DNA from: Candidatus Hydrogenedentota bacterium
Lineage (GTDB): Bacteria; Hydrogenedentota; Hydrogenedentia; Hydrogenedentales; CAIZGN01
DNA length: 36,916 nt
Direction: 5' to 3'
NCBI GenBank assembly: GCA_903932505.1
Contig: CAIZGN010000628.1
Span: forward strand, 1 to 36,916
The notes beneath the pieces were generated by a model that saw only the letters and a program-made list of their open reading frames with translations, was not told the origin of the DNA and made no database searches. Within the stretch, counting starts at the first letter, position 1. Every line of letters starts with the position of its first letter. Made by a program: the position numbers and the translations under genes. Shown here one piece after another: positions 3,913 to 29,191 of this stretch.

Positions 3913-3958
3913 GAAGTAGAACTTCCACTACCAATGTGGTATATTTAGGGGGTATAAT
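3913..3958 (+). promoter_or_regulatory. Divergent yqeY/rnhA intergenic region: two inverted repeats and a TATAAT box
   Basis: The 345-base gap between yqeY and rnhA (3729-4073) holds no gene. Two 13-bp dyads stand side by side: GAAGT-aga-ACTTC (3913-3925) and TACCA-atg-TGGTA (3929-3941). A perfect TATAAT follows at 3953-3958. The -35 position would fall inside the second dyad and has no good match, which fits an activator- or repressor-controlled promoter. On the minus strand a TATAGT sequence near 3895-3900 could serve yqeY. Confidence 0.4.
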
Positions 3959-3999
3959 ATTGGACGTGGGATCAGATGATCCTCGAATGCTCGAAAAAT

Positions 4000-4073: not shown

Positions 4074-4568
4074 GTGGATACCCCGCTCAAACAGGTTATC
4101 ATCTACACCGACGGCGGTTGCGACCCCAACCCAGGCACGGGGGGCTGGGCGGCCGTGCTTCGATGCGGCGGTGCCGTGAAGGAATTGTCGGGCGGGGCAA
4201 CGGACACCACAAACAACCGCATGGAAATGACGGCGGCTATTCAGGCCCTCGAATCCCTGAAATACCCATGCCAAGTAGAACTCCATACGGATTCGCAGTA
4301 TCTGCAGCGGGGTATAACCGAGTGGCTTCCGAATTGGAAGAGCCGGGGATTTCGCCGCAAGGGGGGCGAAGTCCTGAACGCAGACTTGTGGCGGCAGTTG
4401 GATGAAATTTCTGCCCGTCACGAGGTTCGCTGGCTGTGGGTACGCGGCCACGCGGGCAACCCGATGAACGAACGATGTGATGAGTTGGCCGCAGCGGCCA
4501 TCTTGGCGCAAAAACGCAGGGAAAGTGGTTCGGGCCTTCGTCCGACCCGAATTTCTGCAGACGGATGA
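4074..4568 (+). CDS. rnhA: Ribonuclease HI
   Basis: A 164-residue RNase HI, which cuts the RNA strand of RNA-DNA hybrids. All catalytic landmarks are present: the first Asp in IIYTDGGCDPNPG, the Glu in NNRMEMTA, the Asp in HTDSQYL, and the RGHAGNPMNERCDELA segment with the loop His and final Asp. The basic-protrusion-like region (WLPNWKSRGFRRKGG) is also present. The start is taken as GTG 4074 because CAGGAA lies just upstream and the family begins near here; an in-frame ATG at 4017 would add 19 residues unlike the family. It overlaps the kinase gene by 4 bases (ATGA type), so the two are probably translationally coupled. Confidence 0.93.
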   Translation: MDTPLKQVIIYTDGGCDPNPGTGGWAAVLRCGGAVKELSGGATDTTNNRMEMTAAIQALESLKYPCQVELHTDSQYLQRGITEWLPNWKSRGFRRKGGEVLNADLWRQLDEISARHEVRWLWVRGHAGNPMNERCDELAAAAILAQKRRESGSGLRPTRISADG

Positions 4569-22440: not shown

Positions 22441-22518
<78 letters not shown>

Positions 22519-22528
22519 CGAAAGCCTT

Positions 22529-22566
22529 GCCGCCCAATGGGTTATGAAAACAGCCTCTTGGGCGGC
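22529..22566 (+). terminator. Hairpin just inside attL, possible replacement tRNA terminator
   Basis: GCCGCCCAA (22529-22537) pairs perfectly with TTGGGCGGC (22558-22566) around a 20-base loop, followed by TTTCCTTTG. It lies 12 bases after the tRNA. The element has separated the tRNA from its original terminator (29203-29255), and this hairpin could take over. The T-run is poor. Confidence 0.45.
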
Positions 22567-22583
22567 TTTCCTTTGCCTTGCGC

Positions 22584-22605
22584 CATGTGTCCCGTATGTG
22601 TCCCA
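22584..22605. repeat. Left arm-type repeat pair (2 x ATGTGTCCC)
   Basis: Two ATGTGTCCC units 11 bases apart, together a 22-bp sequence repeated exactly at 28981-29002 near the other end. The 11-base period puts both units on one face of the helix. Best read as integrase arm-binding sites 65 bases inside attL. Confidence 0.7.
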
Positions 22606-22677
22606 CCGCGCCGAAAAAACGGGATCGTATACCCGCGAAGTTTTCCCTATACTTTCGCCCGCCTGAACACGAAACGA

Positions 22678-22702
22678 CCCCGCGCTAAGGAAAAACGCGG
22701 GG
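22678..22702 (-). terminator. Possible terminator of the element's gene string
   Basis: CCCCGCG (22678-22684) pairs with CGCGGGG (22696-22702), 37 bases after the stop of the small-terminase-like gene. The minus-strand tail TCGTTTCG is only moderately T-rich. Confidence 0.45.
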
Positions 22703-22739
22703 CCGGGAAAAGGGGGCCGTGGTGGCCCGTGCGTGGGGG

Positions 22740-23147
22740 TTATGGTTTAGCCATGGCTTGCTCAAGAGCAAGGAGCCGGGTTTCGACTTCCACATGTGCC
22801 GCCAGTTTCAGGGCGGTATCTAGAATGCCCAAAGCCGCGCGAACGCGGACGGCCTCTGCGGCATTGCCGTCCCGCACAATGGCCCGCAAGACTTCCACGG
22901 CTTCAACCGCACCCGCTGAAAGCCCGCGTGTGGCTTCCCTCAGTGCGTCGCATTGCGCCATGGCCATGGCTTCGCGGAATGCGTCCGTGGACGCCCACCG
23001 ATACGCGGTTCGCTGTGGAATGTTCTCGGCCTTCGCGGCCTTGCGTATGTCGCCATGCTCGAATACGGCGTTTGCAAACTTGCGGATCTTGAGTTCTTGC
23101 GGGCCGCCTATCGGTGTGCCACTGGTTGCCATTTTCTTGGACTCCAT
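22740..23147 (-). CDS. Small-terminase-like helix-turn-helix protein
   Basis: About 135 residues from ATG 23147 (GAGG 9 bases upstream; ATG 23132 is an alternative). The segment [32 protein letters not shown] is a homeodomain-like HTH as in phage small terminase subunits of the phBC6A51 type. It is followed by long helices ([54 protein letters not shown]) that would oligomerise. In phages such a protein recognises DNA for packaging; in satellites a private copy redirects packaging. No large terminase is present, so it would have to work with a helper's. It follows the 103-residue gene by one base (TAG-A-ATG). It could instead be a transcription regulator. Confidence 0.65.
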
Positions 23148-23148
23148 T

Positions 23149-23460
23149 CTATCCAGCCTCAAGCGCTTGGGCGTTCGGGCCATGCGTGGGTATGGGTGGC
23201 GTTACGTTCGTGCCTTGTGGGGCAACGTGGGCGGTTTCTTGGGTATCCACGCGCCGCCAATGGCCGTTTGCGTCCCGTTGCCAGTCTTCAAACAAGCGCC
23301 GCGCCTCTTCGGGTGGAGCCGGGTCCGCTGCCACAAGTTCGGCGATTGCATCCAGCAGCTCATCGTCGGTCATCGAGCGATACGGATTCTTCGCGGTCTC
23401 GACCGTCGCGAGTCTGGTTTCAAGCTCGTTCAACCGTTTTTCCAATTGAGCGTGCGTCAT
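23149..23460 (-). CDS. Small coiled-coil protein of the element, function unknown
   Basis: 103 residues from ATG 23460, one base after the stop of the 73-residue gene (TAA-C-ATG). It starts MTHAQLEKRLNELETRLATVE, a short coiled coil, followed by SMTDDELLDAIAELVAADP and a Pro-rich, low-complexity tail (HVAPQGTNVTPPIPTHGP). A frame open up to 23541 gives a longer N-terminus that overlaps the upstream gene and is rejected. No known family. Its place directly before the small-terminase-like gene suggests a packaging or DNA-binding partner role (inference). Confidence 0.65.
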   Translation of the reverse strand: MTHAQLEKRLNELETRLATVETAKNPYRSMTDDELLDAIAELVAADPAPPEEARRLFEDWQRDANGHWRRVDTQETAHVAPQGTNVTPPIPTHGPNAQALEAG

Positions 23461-23461
23461 G

Positions 23462-23683
23462 TTACGCGCTGAAGAGACTGGACAGGTCGGCCAGTCCGCG
23501 CGACTCACAAAGCACAACCAAACTGTCGCTGCATTCTGCACGCGCTCGGGTGTTCACTGACTCGATTTCTGCGGTGGTCAATCCGAGCTCGCGCATGATG
23601 TCCTCGTTTTGCATGGTGAGGTAGCTGTTGAACCGTGGTCCTTGCGGCAATACTGCCATTCTGCTTGAATCATTTCGTTGCAT
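23462..23683 (-). CDS. Small protein of the element, function unknown
   Basis: 73 residues from ATG 23683, with AAAGGA 5 bases upstream. The middle (MQNEDIMRELGLTTAEIESVNTRARAECSDSL) is helical and resembles phage head-morphogenesis or assembly helper peptides only in general style; no family is recognised. Tightly coupled to the following 103-residue gene. A 34-base gap separates it from the 79-residue gene before it. Confidence 0.55.
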   Translation of the reverse strand: MQRNDSSRMAVLPQGPRFNSYLTMQNEDIMRELGLTTAEIESVNTRARAECSDSLVVLCESRGLADLSSLFSA

Positions 23684-23717
23684 GGTGTTCCTTTCGTTTT
23701 GGCCGTGTGGCCGATTG

Positions 23718-23957
23718 TTATTTCATCAAGATCAACCGCGCTGCAGTGTTTGAGCCTTGCGCGGTATAGATGCTCGCTCTCAAAAAATCGTTCATATCCA
23801 ACTTTGTCGGTGGTTCCATTGCCGTGCCTGCGCCTGCATTGGCGTTTGGATGAGCCGGTGCGGACGTTGCCAGCGCCACGCCAGCGGATGCGCGAAGGTG
23901 CGTAATGGCCTGCCGATCCACCTCGGCCCTCAGAAAATCATTCATGGCGTCGTTCAT
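23718..23957 (-). CDS. 79-residue protein with a duplicated MNDFLRA motif
   Basis: It starts at ATG 23957, which overlaps the stop of the coiled-coil gene as ATGA. The sequence MNDFLRA occurs twice, at residues 5-11 and about 55-61, joined by an Ala/Pro-rich linker (SAPAHPNANAGAGTAMEPP). Short linear motifs repeated on a flexible linker suggest it binds a partner at two places (inference). No known family is recognised. Confidence 0.6.
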   Translation of the reverse strand: MNDAMNDFLRAEVDRQAITHLRASAGVALATSAPAHPNANAGAGTAMEPPTKLDMNDFLRASIYTAQGSNTAARLILMK

Positions 23958-24550
23958 GCGGCTTCCCCTTCGGTTTCCACTTGCTCGGGCCGGGGCGCCA
24001 CAAACAAATTGCCTTCGGTAATCCGAAAACGTTCGTCGAAGTCGGGCCGAAAACTTCCATTTAGCGTGTCCATGCGAACCGGGAACCGCTCGGCCCGCGA
24101 GATCGGCACGAGGGGGCTTCCCCATTCCCGGCAAAGCTCCTTGTGATCGGCGACGAGGGCGTTGTGCTGCTTGTAAGCCGCGTTTACCTCCTTGGCCAAT
24201 GTCCGGGCCCGCTCATAATGTCCAAGAAGCTCTTGGGCCTGCTCGCGGGCCTGCTCGCCTATCTTCGCGAGGTTGTCCGCGCAAACCGCCGCTGCGTGTG
24301 GAAGCGCGTCCAACCGGGCTTGCTTGAGTGCCGTTTCGATCAGGGGCAAGCGTTCGCGGGCTTGGCTAAGACCCACTTGGGCGGCGTCCAATGCTTTCCG
24401 CGCCTTGCCCTCGGAGGTGGTGTCGTCTTTGCCCACGGCAGCCGCCCAATCTTTTTGTGCCTGGGCTAGTCGGGCCTCAAGCCCTACCACTTCGCGTTGT
24501 TCGTCGGAAAGTCGACTTTCCAAACGCGATACCGTTTCGAGTGTGTTCAT
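23954..24550 (-). CDS. Coiled-coil protein of the element, function unknown
   Basis: 198 residues from ATG 24550 (AAAGG 6 bases upstream; a longer frame to 24595 has no such site). Residues 1-140 are almost continuous heptads (LETVSRLESRLSDEQREVVGLEARLAQAQKDW; ERLPLIETALKQARLDAL; AREQAQELLGHYERARTLAKEVNAAYKQHN). The last 50 residues are less regular (GSPLVPISRAERFPVRMDTLNGSF). Scaffold- or head-assembly-like proteins look like this, but nothing specific is recognised. It lies downstream of the primase-polymerase gene, across the repeat cluster proposed as an origin. Confidence 0.65.
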   Translation of the reverse strand: MNTLETVSRLESRLSDEQREVVGLEARLAQAQKDWAAAVGKDDTTSEGKARKALDAAQVGLSQARERLPLIETALKQARLDALPHAAAVCADNLAKIGEQAREQAQELLGHYERARTLAKEVNAAYKQHNALVADHKELCREWGSPLVPISRAERFPVRMDTLNGSFRPDFDERFRITEGNLFVAPRPEQVETEGEAA

Positions 24551-24614
24551 GTTCTGCCTTTCGTGGGCTTCCGCCCGGTTCCGTTTTCCGCCCATATTGT
24601 TGGTGGTGTTGGTT

Positions 24615-24733
24615 GACTGACGGACGGAAACGGAAGTACCCCCCCTATAGGGGTACTTTCCGTCAGTCCTTCAGTCACTTGTAGGTGAAGGACGTGAAGT
24701 ATTTCCTTCACCTTTCCGTCAGTTCCTTCAGTC
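24615..24733. repeat. Repeat cluster after the primase gene: candidate replication origin
   Basis: Inverted repeat GACTGACGGA (24615-24624) / TCCGTCAGTC (24659-24668) encloses a second palindrome AAGTACCCC (24634-24642) / GGGGTACTT (24650-24658). A separate palindrome AGGTGAAGGA (24683-24692) / TCCTTCACCT (24704-24713) follows. A direct repeat of about 21 bases, CTTTCCGTCAGT(T)CCTTCAGTC, occurs at 24656-24676 and 24712-24733, overlapping the primase stop codon. Iterons and dyads at the 3' end of a rep/primase gene are the usual place for satellite origins. Confidence 0.6.
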
Positions 24734-26884
24734 TTGGTTTTCATGTTTTTCACACCATGGTGTCGCGAGATGGGTGGGCTTCACAAACTGCGTTTTGACC
24801 TCCACAAACAAATGGGCGGCCTCTTCAAGTTCGTCGATCATGGCCGTTAGCTCCTTGATCGTGACCGCGCGCCCGTCGCACAAATCGGCGATCTTATCTC
24901 GGACTATTGAACCATGCTCGCGGGCTACTTTGTGTCGCGAGTGACCCATCAACTGTGTTTTGGTCACGTCCTCAGAGCTCAGAACGGTGATGACCGAGTG
25001 CCGCAATTGTGCATCTTCAGCAGCCCGGCGTGCGGCAATAGTTCCCGCCGCATCGAATGGAATCAACACGCCACCCAATTCGGGGCCGGTCAACCGTTGG
25101 AGATATATGGGCTTCCCCTCTTCGCCTAAATTGCTTTTGCCGTGTCCAAGCACCAATATAGTTCCGGTGTCTTCGGGCAAGCCCTTGGTCTCTTCCGGGG
25201 TCGCAAGTCGTAATGTCAGCCGGGATCGTACCGCGCCCTCCTGCGCAGAAGAACCGCGTGCTGTGGCGTCCAAGGTGTTCTTGCCGGTGTGACATATCAG
25301 CAATAACGCGCAGTCCCGAGGAAGGACTGACCTCAGACACGCCATGACAGGGGCCATATCATCCGCATCATTTTCTTTCGCAACGCCGCCCATGACGGCG
25401 CTCAAGGTGTCGAGTACGAAGAGCCGGGTCCGGTTCACTTGCAGATGATTCCGTATCGCCATCAAATCGGGGCCGGGCAGTATTGCGCGGTCCGGGCCTC
25501 TGGATAGCGCCCGAAGCAAGCATGCTGGCAGTATCGAAAGGTACTCGCGCAGCTGCTCGCATTTGTTTTCAGTCAAATTAAAAGCGCGTGCGATTTTCTG
25601 TAGCCGACGGTGAACCTCTATCCCGTCCTCCTCCAACGTGGCGAGAACAACATGACCGGAACGGGGTGGGGCCATGCCGGGGATCAAGTTCGCTCCCGTC
25701 GCCACAGACACGCCAAGGGTCGCGCCAAACCAGCTTTTGCCAACGCCGGGCGGCGCAACCAACGAGGTGACAACGCCAGCCGGAACCGCGTAGCCGAGCA
25801 CGAAGTCGGTCGGCGGGATCGCTTTCGTGTCCCAGTTTTCGCCAAGGTTGTACCACGGCAAATCGGTGGTCGGGGCCGTGCTGGTCGCGTCATCACCAGG
25901 GGAGACCTCTGGCGTGTCCACGCCGGTGTGCCATACGGTATCATCCCATGCCAACGCTCGGGGCGCCGGTCGCGCAGCCACGGTCCGGGGCTTCGCCGCG
26001 CCGGACTTCCAACCGGACTCAATAGTCTTTCGGGCTTCGGCTTCTGGTAGTCCCGCAATCAGTGCGGCGGTCAACAAGCGGGTCTTCGGGTATTCGGGAT
26101 AGGGCCAAGTGTAGCCAGACAGCTTGTGCGCGACCCTGTTCAGCGTGGCGTTCCGCGTGCCCTCTGGGGCCGCCGCGATGACCGCGAGTTCGCCTTGAAG
26201 AGCAGTTTCGAGGTACTTATCCGAGCATGAAATGGGGGGCAATGTGGTCGCTGCTGAAGGCCGGGTGTCCCGTTCCTTGCGCGTCAGTCGCTCGTGCAAT
26301 TCGACCGGCCATGGGGCCAGAGGCATATCCTCGGGAGCACGGTCAGCAGCCCACCGGTAGGGCTCGCCATTATCCGGGTGGATACTGCCGGGGTAGACCA
26401 CTTGGCCGCCATCGCCACGCACGTCCACATTCGCAGCGATTTTACTAGCGCTGTTCTTTACGACGACGCCGGGAGGTGCAGCATAGTACAGGTGCATACC
26501 GCCCTTGCCCGTTATTGCCGTTACGGTTTCTCCTGTAAACCCATCGGGCAATCCAGCTAAGGCTCTTGTATTCTTGTCTGCGTCGAGGTCCAGCACGATC
26601 ACGCCGCTAGCTGCTCCGGTGCGCAGACCGATGTTTCCCGAGGCCGCCCATGCACGTGCGGTCTCAAGGGATTCTCGCGGGGCCGTAGACCATCCGATGT
26701 CCACGGGTTTCTTACCGACCAGTGGGGTGAAGCTCCACCCGCGATTGTGGCCGTCGCGGACATTCGCGACCCTTGCGTCCGCCGCCGATTGGGTGTACAA
26801 TAACGGTGTCGATTCTGTTTGTTGCCCTGGTTCACAGCCGGGGCTTTTTTGTTGTGGCGGCGAAAGTGCCGCTTCCGTCGTCAT
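24728..26884 (-). CDS. Primase-polymerase fused to a RepA-like AAA ATPase
   Basis: 718 residues from ATG 26884, which overlaps the HTH gene stop as ATGA. The N-terminal half (about 25-220) is a bifunctional primase-polymerase (AEP) domain: catalytic D99-L-D101 in VIVLDLDAD, GKGGMH131 and the VDVRGDGGQVVYPGS block. The C-terminal half is a RecA/RepA-type ATPase: Walker A APPGVGKS with K383, Walker B RLFVLDTLS with D491, then LLICHTGK. Together it would prime and unwind DNA to start element replication; phage satellites and plasmids carry such fusions. The frame extends to 26968 but the added residues are not family-like. The origin-like repeats overlap and follow its stop. Confidence 0.9.
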   Translation of the reverse strand: MTTEAALSPPQQKSPGCEPGQQTESTPLLYTQSAADARVANVRDGHNRGWSFTPLVGKKPVDIGWSTAPRESLETARAWAASGNIGLRTGAASGVIVLDLDADKNTRALAGLPDGFTGETVTAITGKGGMHLYYAAPPGVVVKNSASKIAANVDVRGDGGQVVYPGSIHPDNGEPYRWAADRAPEDMPLAPWPVELHERLTRKERDTRPSAATTLPPISCSDKYLETALQGELAVIAAAPEGTRNATLNRVAHKLSGYTWPYPEYPKTRLLTAALIAGLPEAEARKTIESGWKSGAAKPRTVAARPAPRALAWDDTVWHTGVDTPEVSPGDDATSTAPTTDLPWYNLGENWDTKAIPPTDFVLGYAVPAGVVTSLVAPPGVGKSWFGATLGVSVATGANLIPGMAPPRSGHVVLATLEEDGIEVHRRLQKIARAFNLTENKCEQLREYLSILPACLLRALSRGPDRAILPGPDLMAIRNHLQVNRTRLFVLDTLSAVMGGVAKENDADDMAPVMACLRSVLPRDCALLLICHTGKNTLDATARGSSAQEGAVRSRLTLRLATPEETKGLPEDTGTILVLGHGKSNLGEEGKPIYLQRLTGPELGGVLIPFDAAGTIAARRAAEDAQLRHSVITVLSSEDVTKTQLMGHSRHKVAREHGSIVRDKIADLCDGRAVTIKELTAMIDELEEAAHLFVEVKTQFVKPTHLATPWCEKHENQD

Positions 26885-27093
26885 GCGCAAACACTTTCTT
26901 TGACATGCGCGTCCAACCACGCATCCAGATCGCCAACGCGATAGAGCACGCGCACGCCGATCTTGCAAAACTTGGGGCCGGGTGTTTCGGAACGGGTTCT
27001 GCCCCTCATTCTGGCACGCCTCAGAAATGGAATCGACATTCCACAGTACGCGCTCGCCTGTTTTTCGTTCAACACATTGGCCATTTGGTTCAT
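26881..27093 (-). CDS. AlpA/Xis-like helix-turn-helix protein
   Basis: 70 residues, from ATG 27093 with AAGGAGA 7 bases upstream. MANVLNEKQASAYCGMSIPFLRRARMRG...GPKFCKIGVRVLYRVGDLDAWLDAH is the MerR-type winged helix of the HTH_17/AlpA-excisionase family: N-terminal LNEKQAS.Y.G.S...LRR, then the PK..KIG.RV.Y...DLDAWL wing. Such proteins help excision as directionality factors or regulate the element. The iteron pairs at 27161-27244 lie just upstream and could be its sites. Its stop overlaps the primase start, so both are translated together. Confidence 0.83.
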   Translation of the reverse strand: MNQMANVLNEKQASAYCGMSIPFLRRARMRGRTRSETPGPKFCKIGVRVLYRVGDLDAWLDAHVKESVCA

Positions 27094-27160
27094 GTTTTCG
27101 TCTCCTTGGTTTTGCGACTCGCGCCGCGTTTACCAGAGACTACCGCGTGTTTTTCGCTTG

Positions 27161-27244
27161 GAAAGTAGAAAGAAAGTAGGAAAGCCCGCGCACCCTTGTA
27201 TTTATTGGGCGGCGGGCCTCGAAAAGAAAGTAGGAAGAAACTAG
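27161..27244. repeat. Paired GAAAGTAG iterons around a hairpin, upstream of the HTH gene
   Basis: GAAAGTAG at 27161, 27172 and 27226, and GAAACTAG at 27237. Spacing within each pair is 11 bases and the pairs are exactly 65 bases apart. Between them GCCCGC (27184-27189) and GCGGGC (27212-27217) can pair around an AT-rich loop (TTGTATTTATT). The block overlaps the stop of the 144-residue gene. Probably Xis, replication-protein or regulator sites. Confidence 0.6.
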
Positions 27245-27675
27245 AACCGTGGTTTGTGTTGTATTGTGGGTATCATTTTGGTCACCTTGGAAAGCATTTT
27301 CTCGCGCTCTTTGACAAGCCAACGGTTAAACGAAGCCGGATCTATGCGGCGGTTTTTTCGCGTGCCGATACTTTCAAGGCCACCCGGCACGCACGCCTTG
27401 GTTATCGCGGTTCCGGCGGCTTCAATGGTGATGCTTTTCAGCGCCGGATAGTCCCGCGTGAAGCCTTCGCGCATATCGTAAAACTTTTGAGCGGCTTCCC
27501 CATGCGTGTGCCAGCCGGGCGGCGCCTTCGGTTTCGTGGCTGGTTCGGGAATGCCTTCAGCCTCACGCCACAGACGGCGAATGTGATCGCTCATGACGGC
27601 GCTCACCTGACGCTCGCGCTCGCGTTCAAGCGCAAGCAAGGCTTTGCTCGCTTCAATGGTTTCTTCAGGTGTCAT
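27241..27675 (-). CDS. 144-residue protein next to the integrase, function unknown
   Basis: It starts at ATG 27675, overlapping the integrase stop as ATGA. The N-terminal third is helical and charged (EETIEASKALLALERERERQVSAVMSDHIRRLWREAEGIPEP); the middle is basic and Pro-rich (ATKPKAPPGWHTHGEAAQKFYDMREGF); the C-terminus (RKNRRIDPASFNRWLVKEREKML) looks like it could bind nucleic acid. No known family is recognised. Cotranslation with the integrase suggests a role in recombination or its control. Confidence 0.62.
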   Translation of the reverse strand: MTPEETIEASKALLALERERERQVSAVMSDHIRRLWREAEGIPEPATKPKAPPGWHTHGEAAQKFYDMREGFTRDYPALKSITIEAAGTAITKACVPGGLESIGTRKNRRIDPASFNRWLVKEREKMLSKVTKMIPTIQHKPRF

Positions 27676-28967
27676 TGTGTGTTTTCCTTCGCGAATTCGA
27701 GCACGTTGGAGGCGTTTCCTCTGTCCAGCAACGCCACCGCCGCCGCCCGGTTGGCCGGTGCAAGGTGCGCATACCGCAAAACCATTTTTATGTCGGAATG
27801 GCCCAACAATTCGCGGACAACGTTCAAGTCCGCGCCCGCCTGTACCAGTTTGCTTGCGAAGTCATGGCGCATGTCATGCCAGCGGAACGCTCCGAAAAGT
27901 CCAGCGGCCTTGAGTACTTCGCGCCATGCGCCGTTACAGTGATCAAACTTGAGGCCCGTTTTCGGAGACTTGAACACAAGGCCCGTGCTGCCTGTTTGCT
28001 CGCGCCACGCTTGAAGCGTTTCCCGCGCCGTTTGGTTCAATGGAACATGGCGGCTTCGCGCGTTCTTAGCCACGGTGCCGCGCACCACAAGCGACGGGGC
28101 CGGGCCTTCAAGAGTTATGTCTCGCCATTCGATACTGAATAATTCATTTCTGCGAAGGCCACTATTCAGACTCAACAAAACCATGGCCCTCAAGTGATCG
28201 GCAAATTTGCACTTGCGAAGATCCGGCAACTCTTCAAGGTTTCGCGCCCGCCGCCATGCGTTGTAGCGGGTGCGGCGTTCCCTCAATTCATTCTCGCGGA
28301 AATTCAGTGCCGCCAAGAGCCGCGTCCCCTCTGCGGGTTCCAAGAAACGCGCCACCGCGCTTGTGTCCGCGCGGCCCAGCTTGATACCGGCCAACGGGTT
28401 TTCCGCCAGCATACCCCATTCCACGGCCTTTGAAAATGCCGCCCGCAATGCGGCGAAGTCTCGGCCTATCGTGGTTTCGGTGGCCGGTTTTTTGCGGCCT
28501 TTCAGTGGTGTTTTCAGCCGCGCGGCCCGGTGCTTTTCAAAGTCCCATTTGGTGAGTTCCGCCAACCGTTTGCTCAACAATGGCACAAAACCGCTCAGAA
28601 TGCGTGCTACTGCGTCCTTGTGGCTTTTCAAGCGGCCCGCCGCCCATGGTTGATAGTGCTCGGAAACGAATTTCCCCAGCGTCAGATCGGCGAGGTTCTC
28701 GCGCCGCGCCTGTGCCGGATCTTCCCCTTGGACAATGGCGGCATAGTGTTCGGCGGCCTTCTCGCGTGCCTGGGCACAAGCGAGCAAGGAGGCGTCGCCG
28801 ATCCGCACTCGGCCTCGAGCGCCGGTGGAAAGCCTGTATCGAAAGTAGAACATTTTGGCGCCCGACACCTGCACGCGGACTGATAGTCCCTTGGTGTCGG
28901 TATCGGCAACCTCGTATGGCGTTTCCTTTGGCGTGAGTTTTTCAATGGCCTTGTTTGTGAATTTCAT
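27672..28967 (-). CDS. Tyrosine recombinase (DUF4102-type integrase)
   Basis: 431 residues from ATG 28967, with GGAGA 5 bases upstream; the frame to 28979 adds only four residues. The N-terminus (about 1-85) is the DUF4102 arm-binding domain of P4-like integrases (KFTNKAIEKLTPKETPYEVADTDTKGLSVRV). A SAM-like core-binding domain follows. The catalytic domain has R272 in NSGLRRNEL, H364-x-x-R367 in WHDMRHDF, a GHSD motif and nucleophile Y399 in LRYAHL. It carries out site-specific recombination between the element and tRNA-Ala. It is the gene nearest attR and is read inward from a promoter at 29008-29036; arm-type repeats cover its leader. Confidence 0.95.
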   Translation of the reverse strand: MKFTNKAIEKLTPKETPYEVADTDTKGLSVRVQVSGAKMFYFRYRLSTGARGRVRIGDASLLACAQAREKAAEHYAAIVQGEDPAQARRENLADLTLGKFVSEHYQPWAAGRLKSHKDAVARILSGFVPLLSKRLAELTKWDFEKHRAARLKTPLKGRKKPATETTIGRDFAALRAAFSKAVEWGMLAENPLAGIKLGRADTSAVARFLEPAEGTRLLAALNFRENELRERRTRYNAWRRARNLEELPDLRKCKFADHLRAMVLLSLNSGLRRNELFSIEWRDITLEGPAPSLVVRGTVAKNARSRHVPLNQTARETLQAWREQTGSTGLVFKSPKTGLKFDHCNGAWREVLKAAGLFGAFRWHDMRHDFASKLVQAGADLNVVRELLGHSDIKMVLRYAHLAPANRAAAVALLDRGNASNVLEFAKENTQ

Positions 28968-28980
28968 GGCGCTCTCCATT

Positions 28981-29002
28981 CATGTGTCCCGTATGTGTCC
29001 CA
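28981..29002. repeat. Right arm-type repeat pair (2 x ATGTGTCCC) over the int start region
   Basis: Exact copy of the 22-bp sequence at 22584-22605. It begins 14 bases before the integrase ATG and ends 6 bases from the -10 box, covering the expected transcription start. Integrase bound here should block its own promoter (inference). Confidence 0.7.
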
Positions 29003-29007
29003 AGAGA

Positions 29008-29036
29008 ATTATACGCCAATGCAAACGAAAATACAA
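29008..29036 (-). promoter_or_regulatory. Integrase promoter
   Basis: On the minus strand TTGTAT (29031-29036), a 17-base spacer and a perfect TATAAT (29008-29013). Transcription would start near 29001, inside the arm-type repeat, and read the whole gene string of the element. Confidence 0.65.
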
Positions 29037-29144
29037 CCAGTAAACAGGGAGACGCTATTTTAGCCCTGTATTCATTGGGTGAAATGATACCGTTCCGTAT
29101 TCACAAGTTTACAGCGGAACATAGGGAAAGCAAGCAAGAACGGT

Positions 29145-29191
29145 TTCGCAATGCGGAGGCCAGGAGTTCGATCCTCCTCAGCTCCACCAAC
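29145..29191. repeat. attR: 47-bp copy of the tRNA-Ala 3' half
   Basis: A perfect copy of 22472-22518 without the 5' half of the tRNA; it is therefore not a functional gene. The integrase gene starts 178 bases to its left. Confidence 0.95.

Follow-up and report, generated by a model that had tools for sequence, protein, structure and literature searches.

The two tandem repeat pairs found near the ends of a 6.7 kb element are, in our reading, arm-type sites of the tyrosine integrase that the element encodes, and the pair on the int side would also be the operator through which this integrase limits its own synthesis. As a conclusion drawn from sequence, this reading is given a probability of about 87%. 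The identity, uniqueness and geometry of the pairs, their conserved anatomy in relatives, the register of the -10 box and the co-variation of the repeat letters with the DUF4102 arm domain were all computed, and it is from these that we infer binding, its stoichiometry and repression. In the circular form of the element, the pairs would flank the attP core in the same orientation, about 65 bp away on one side and about 142 bp on the other. The N-terminal beta-sheet domains of integrase protomers would bind adjacent 11-bp units from the same side of the helix, and the catalytic domains would occupy the core, giving an intasome for integration into, or excision from, tRNA-Ala. Since the int-side pair coincides with the place where int transcription is expected to begin, directly behind the -10 box, bound integrase would there block initiation and limit its own level.

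Identical repeat pairs within a tRNA-Ala element

The element occupies positions 22472-29191 of the window (that is, the whole stretch of 36,916 bp that was analysed) and is bounded by a 47-bp direct repeat corresponding to the 3' part of tRNA-Ala(CGC). The intact tRNA gene (22441-22516, plus strand, detected by ARAGORN), which is the integration target, stands at the int-distal end together with the left att core copy (22472-22518, plus strand); the right copy (29145-29191, plus strand) is a 3' fragment of this tRNA. The recognisable genes of the element are all on the minus strand, and comprise int, a 144-aa ORF, an AlpA/HTH_17-like gene, a primase-helicase gene and small ORFs. The integrase (27672-28967) matches PF00589 and PF13356 (Arm-DNA-bind_3, or DUF4102; 63.3 bits compared to a cut-off of 27). 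Its catalytic residues are intact: R272, K301, H364, R367 and H390 are invariant among 44 relatives, and Y399 nearly so. The 144-aa ORF (27241-27675), which overlaps the int stop codon, has no family match. The assignment of the next gene (26881-27093) as AlpA/excisionase-like is weak (PF12728 at E 3e-4, below the curated cut-off; phrog_66 at E 2e-4), and it is followed by the primase-helicase gene, with Prim-Pol and AAA_25 domain matches (24728-26884). A terminator-like hairpin (22675-22705, minus strand), predicted by consensus scan only, marks the end of the gene string.

The relatives of the integrase and of the genome itself point to Candidatus Hydrogenedentota as the host. A pattern search of this 5.9-Mb genome (740 contigs) returned the 22-bp sequence CATGTGTCCCGTATGTGTCCCA in exactly two copies, on the same strand, at 22584-22605 and 28981-29002. 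The copies are 100% identical, and each consists of two units spaced by 11 bp. The second-best matches in the genome differ by three mismatches and lie on other contigs. The unit itself, ATGTGTCCC on the plus strand, or GGGACACAT in the int sense with a period of 11 bp, occurs four times in the window, as the two tandem pairs, compared to 0.31 times expected from shuffles. The left (P'-like) pair, assigned by this repeat count and by the anatomy of second pairs in relatives, begins 65 bp past the end of the left core copy; the right pair, read on the minus strand in the int sense, stops 142 bp short of the right copy. The initial annotation had described an identical 22-bp pair of 11-bp-spaced units, located 65 bases inside attL and over the expected int start, and had taken the pairs for integrase arm sites. 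Positions, identity and spacing were confirmed, and the genome count, with the exact pair at the two element sites only, ruled out numerous copies elsewhere. The reading of the pairs as arm sites is strongly supported by their uniqueness, their attP geometry, the conservation of the anatomy and the co-variation with DUF4102 reported below.

Repeat pairs in integrase relatives

Integrases were picked by similarity to that of the window, and came from Hydrogenedentota, Synergistota, Pseudomonadota and other groups; two further phyla yielded zero integrases at a strict cut-off. Viral contigs, which mostly end at the int start codon, were of no use for the region upstream. At 92 dereplicated loci, tandem repeats (at least 8 of 9 bases matching) were counted in the 85 bp preceding int, for periods of 6 to 30. 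A pair of period 11 was present at 75 loci and one of period 10 at 12, with all other periods at 2 loci or fewer. In the controls, counts reached at most 7 loci in a zone further upstream, and at most 2 in shuffles. The letters of the pair vary by lineage (TGGACTTA, TGCACCCA, TGCTGTCA, TGCTGGTA, TGGAGTAA, TGTGCCAA and many more); once aligned, the units share the frame T-G-N5-A, in which the five inner positions are variable. A fixed motif was rejected as an explanation, GGGACAC tandem pairs being absent from every other relative; what is conserved is the 11-bp geometry only.

Second pairs were sought at the loci with enough surrounding DNA. In 17 elements, the same pair was found again downstream of int, in unchanged orientation and near a tRNA-type att direct repeat. 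Real patterns gave 18 second-copy matches, compared to a total of 1.6 with shuffled patterns. In these elements the core is placed 92 to 153 bp before pair 1 and 44 to 89 bp after pair 2, a geometry that the distances in the window (142 and 65 bp) fit, and ARAGORN detected an intact tRNA (of the kinds Ala, Arg, Met, His, Pro, Leu, Asp or Glu) beside pair 2. With arm repeats on both sides of the core, in the same orientation and near int, the layout is that of a P4-type attP. Compared with P4, the core is inverted relative to the arms, and int consequently lies at the end remote from the intact tRNA, both in the window and in each of the 17 relatives (loci L012, L017-L019, L021-L023, L025, L031, L039, L045, L068, L128-L130, L132 and L133). 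Two further arrangements were observed. At locus L125 (G018), the int-side pair is preceded, at a distance of about 55 bp, by an additional tandem pair that is nearly identical to it (TGGTGCTTAGGAGGTGCTTA); at L043, the second pair is not downstream but upstream of int, 416 bp upstream of the int-side pair, as if this locus were an attP-like junction or adjoined another element.

The predicted int promoter and its putative repression

Although the ORF has an earlier ATG (28979, its first), the integrase start is best placed at ATG 28967, behind GGAGAG. In the int sense, the right end of the element reads TATAAT-TCTCTT-GGGACACATACGGGACACAT-GAATGGAGAGCGCC-ATG. A perfect TATAAT (29008-29013, minus strand), the predicted -10 box, ends 6 bp ahead of the first GGGACACAT unit, so that the pair would span roughly +1 to +20 of the predicted int transcript; the ribosome site and ATG 28967 come after the pair. 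The -35 box is weak (TTGTAT, 3/6, at 29031-29036). This makes the int promoter a prediction, and it also explains why a generic promoter scan missed it. The overlap between the integrase site and the int promoter is thus present by position, with the promoter itself predicted only.

A strong -10 hexamer was searched from -5 to +35 bp around unit 1 in 65 representatives. It was found near pair 1 in 50 of them, at a median of 6 bp upstream (interquartile range 5-6), whereas the start codon follows the unit at anything between 25 and 84 bp. Among the 17 elements with a second pair, none had a -10 before that pair, compared to 8 before the first pair of the same elements; the -10 is therefore not merely part of the arm site. 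So narrow a spacing would be expected if self-repression had been selected for, although shared ancestry could contribute to it. A different explanation would be that the arm sites are real and that their overlap with the int promoter is incidental, without repression: core and int are close together and the promoter has to fit between them, and most members of the TGGACTTA group, as well as L019 and L031, have no clear -10 beside the pair, so that operator overlap is not universal. We consider this unlikely, given that the spacing from -10 to unit is tight where the start codon is not, and that the integrases of P4, KplE1 and PAI I are all reported self-repressors.

These three systems are among the closest known to ours. 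The P4 record (NC_001609) annotates tandem 12-bp pairs as 'attP arm sequence repeat' at 3942-3965, 16 bp before int, and at 4151-4174; the core (4078-4097) lies between them, and the far pair is 54 bp beyond it. As in the present element, tandem arm pairs in one orientation are found on both sides of the core, one of them just before int. Repression of the P4 int promoter by Int itself is reported, according to a citation in PMC7286903. The P4 units differ in having a 12-bp period and the sequence GGGGGCAT, compared to 11 bp and GGGACACAT here. In the KplE1 prophage, the integrase promoter lies partly within the att region, its -10 is overlapped by an IntS arm site, and IntS represses itself (PMC2951348), which parallels the overlap of integrase site and predicted promoter seen here. 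The P4-like integrase IntI of PAI I of E. coli 536, which also resembles the system proposed here, was shown to repress its own promoter, and a role of IHF was shown there (PMC7286903).

The position of int also sets P4 and KplE1 apart from our element. The P4 core reads the tRNA 3' end in the int sense and int adjoins the intact tRNA, and intS of KplE1 adjoins argW in the same sense; in our element and its 17 relatives, with their inverted core, int is found at the opposite end from the tRNA. P4, IntS and IntA all differ in this respect from the tRNA-distal placement in this clade. The genome survey in the KplE1 paper dealt with integrase genes adjacent to tRNA genes (PMC2951348), so that this clade would largely fall outside it.

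Int comes first in a string of genes on one strand. The initial annotation had proposed that the integrase represses its own promoter, and with it the whole string. The first part is well supported by the position of the -10 and the pair in relatives, and by what is reported for P4, KplE1 and PAI I; the second part is not supported, as a 147-bp gap with repeats of its own precedes the alpA-like gene. This gap holds four GAAAGTAGGAA-type units, arranged as two tandem 11-bp pairs (27161-27182 and 27226-27247) 54 bp apart, which are possible operators of AlpA. A separate promoter for alpA is described in Gram-negative PICIs, whose genes are arranged in the same order (PMC10111431). Tandem pairs with a period of 10-12 bp, but with different letters, also precede the alpA-like gene in several relatives.

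Co-variation of repeat letters with the arm domain

If it is the arm domain that recognises the repeats, changes in their letters should go with changes in this domain rather than elsewhere in the integrase. The comparison of arm repeats with DUF4102 among relatives, also put forward in the initial annotation, shows that they track the arm domain and not the catalytic domain. Partial Mantel tests on 65 representatives gave r = 0.486 for the arm given the catalytic domain (0 of 999 permutations), compared to -0.008 for the catalytic domain given the arm (552 of 999) and -0.006 for the core-binding domain given the arm; the control in these tests is the rest of the same protein, shared ancestry is only partly removed, and the set amounts to about 32 effective independent sequences. 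In sliding windows of 60 residues, values were 0.44, 0.44 and 0.34 from residues 1, 16 and 31, and 0.16 or less from residue 46 on, with the catalytic domain near zero or negative. The signal is thus limited to the first 75 to 90 residues. Among pseudomonads, three repeat types occur in integrases whose catalytic domains share up to 82% identity; of the columns that are fixed within and different between these three groups, the arm domain has 22, the core-binding domain 5 and the catalytic domain 2.

In an AlphaFold2 model (mean pLDDT 91.4), the co-varying stretch, approximately residues 17-55, falls on strands 18-21, 28-32, 38-45 and 51-58, that is, on the predicted four-stranded sheet of the arm domain. 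In the lambda and Tn916 integrases, a beta-sheet of the arm domain enters the major groove. With about 32 effective sequences, per-position mutual information was too noisy for single residue-base contacts, and the claim is therefore made at the level of the domain only. The closest solved structure is the arm domain of the HPI integrase (3jtz and 3rmp; sequence E 2.4e-5), the model superposing on 3jtz with a TMt of 0.90; the title of the 3rmp record refers to the basis of attP recognition by P4-like integrases. At about 26% identity, other contact residues and other arm letters are to be expected in our integrase.

The same data bear on whether the pairs are instead sites of the excisionase, namely an AlpA-like recombination directionality factor (RDF), or of another regulator coded by the element. 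Such factors also use direct repeats one helical turn apart, as described in PMC7498355 for Apl of phage 186, and an AlpA-like gene is present inside the element and often in its relatives. A co-inherited RDF, however, would correlate with all integrase domains alike, and the letters track the arm domain only. The different tandem 11-bp repeat GAAAGTAGGAA before alpA is a better candidate for an RDF operator, and in P4, where tandem repeats are laid out in the same way, the record names them arm repeats of attP. We therefore regard this explanation as very improbable, and assignment of the pair to AlpA was rejected on the domain-specific co-variation. Chance or a generic host repeat, for which nothing was found in favour, is already refuted by the uniqueness of the pair in 5.9 Mb, the excess of units in the window (4 compared to 0.31) and the period-11 pairs at 75 of 92 related loci, and has practically no probability left.

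Tandem arm pairs are already annotated in P4, and self-repressing integrases are reported for P4, KplE1 and PAI I; the unexpected yield of the analysis is the co-diversification of repeats and arm domain, which makes a recognition code of DUF4102 testable. A literature search covering few subscription journals did not find such co-variation or an 11-bp arm geometry described. Returning to the arm-site reading, we lean towards a fixed frame (two TG.....A units with an 11-bp period, about 6 bp after the int -10) in which the inner letters changed repeatedly together with the arm beta-sheet, each element thus having a private address read by its own integrase for both recombination and self-repression. 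If this is true, a code would exist by which DUF4102 domains recognise DNA, and sequence alone would suffice to predict att sites, the ends of elements and the operators of int. Integrases of this type drive many genomic islands, satellites and prophages, and arm sites are known for few of them; were the pair before int an arm site in general, arm sites, element ends and the int operator could be located in uncultured bacteria from their sequence. The repeat letters and the arm residues change in pairs, in some cases between close relatives, and these changes provide test cases for the code and for the question of how co-resident elements avoid cross-reaction.

Gram-negative PICI satellites have the same unidirectional order of int, alpA and primase (PMC10111431). 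In the present element, in which the alpA assignment is weak, neither a packaging gene nor a helper was identified, and the host, judged from its relatives, belongs to Candidatus Hydrogenedentota. A 147-aa ORF near its left end (22740-23183, minus strand), which has no Pfam or PHROGs match, has an N-terminal half that looks like a helix-turn-helix; on visual inspection, the protein is reminiscent of a small terminase subunit, and this would be in keeping with a satellite.
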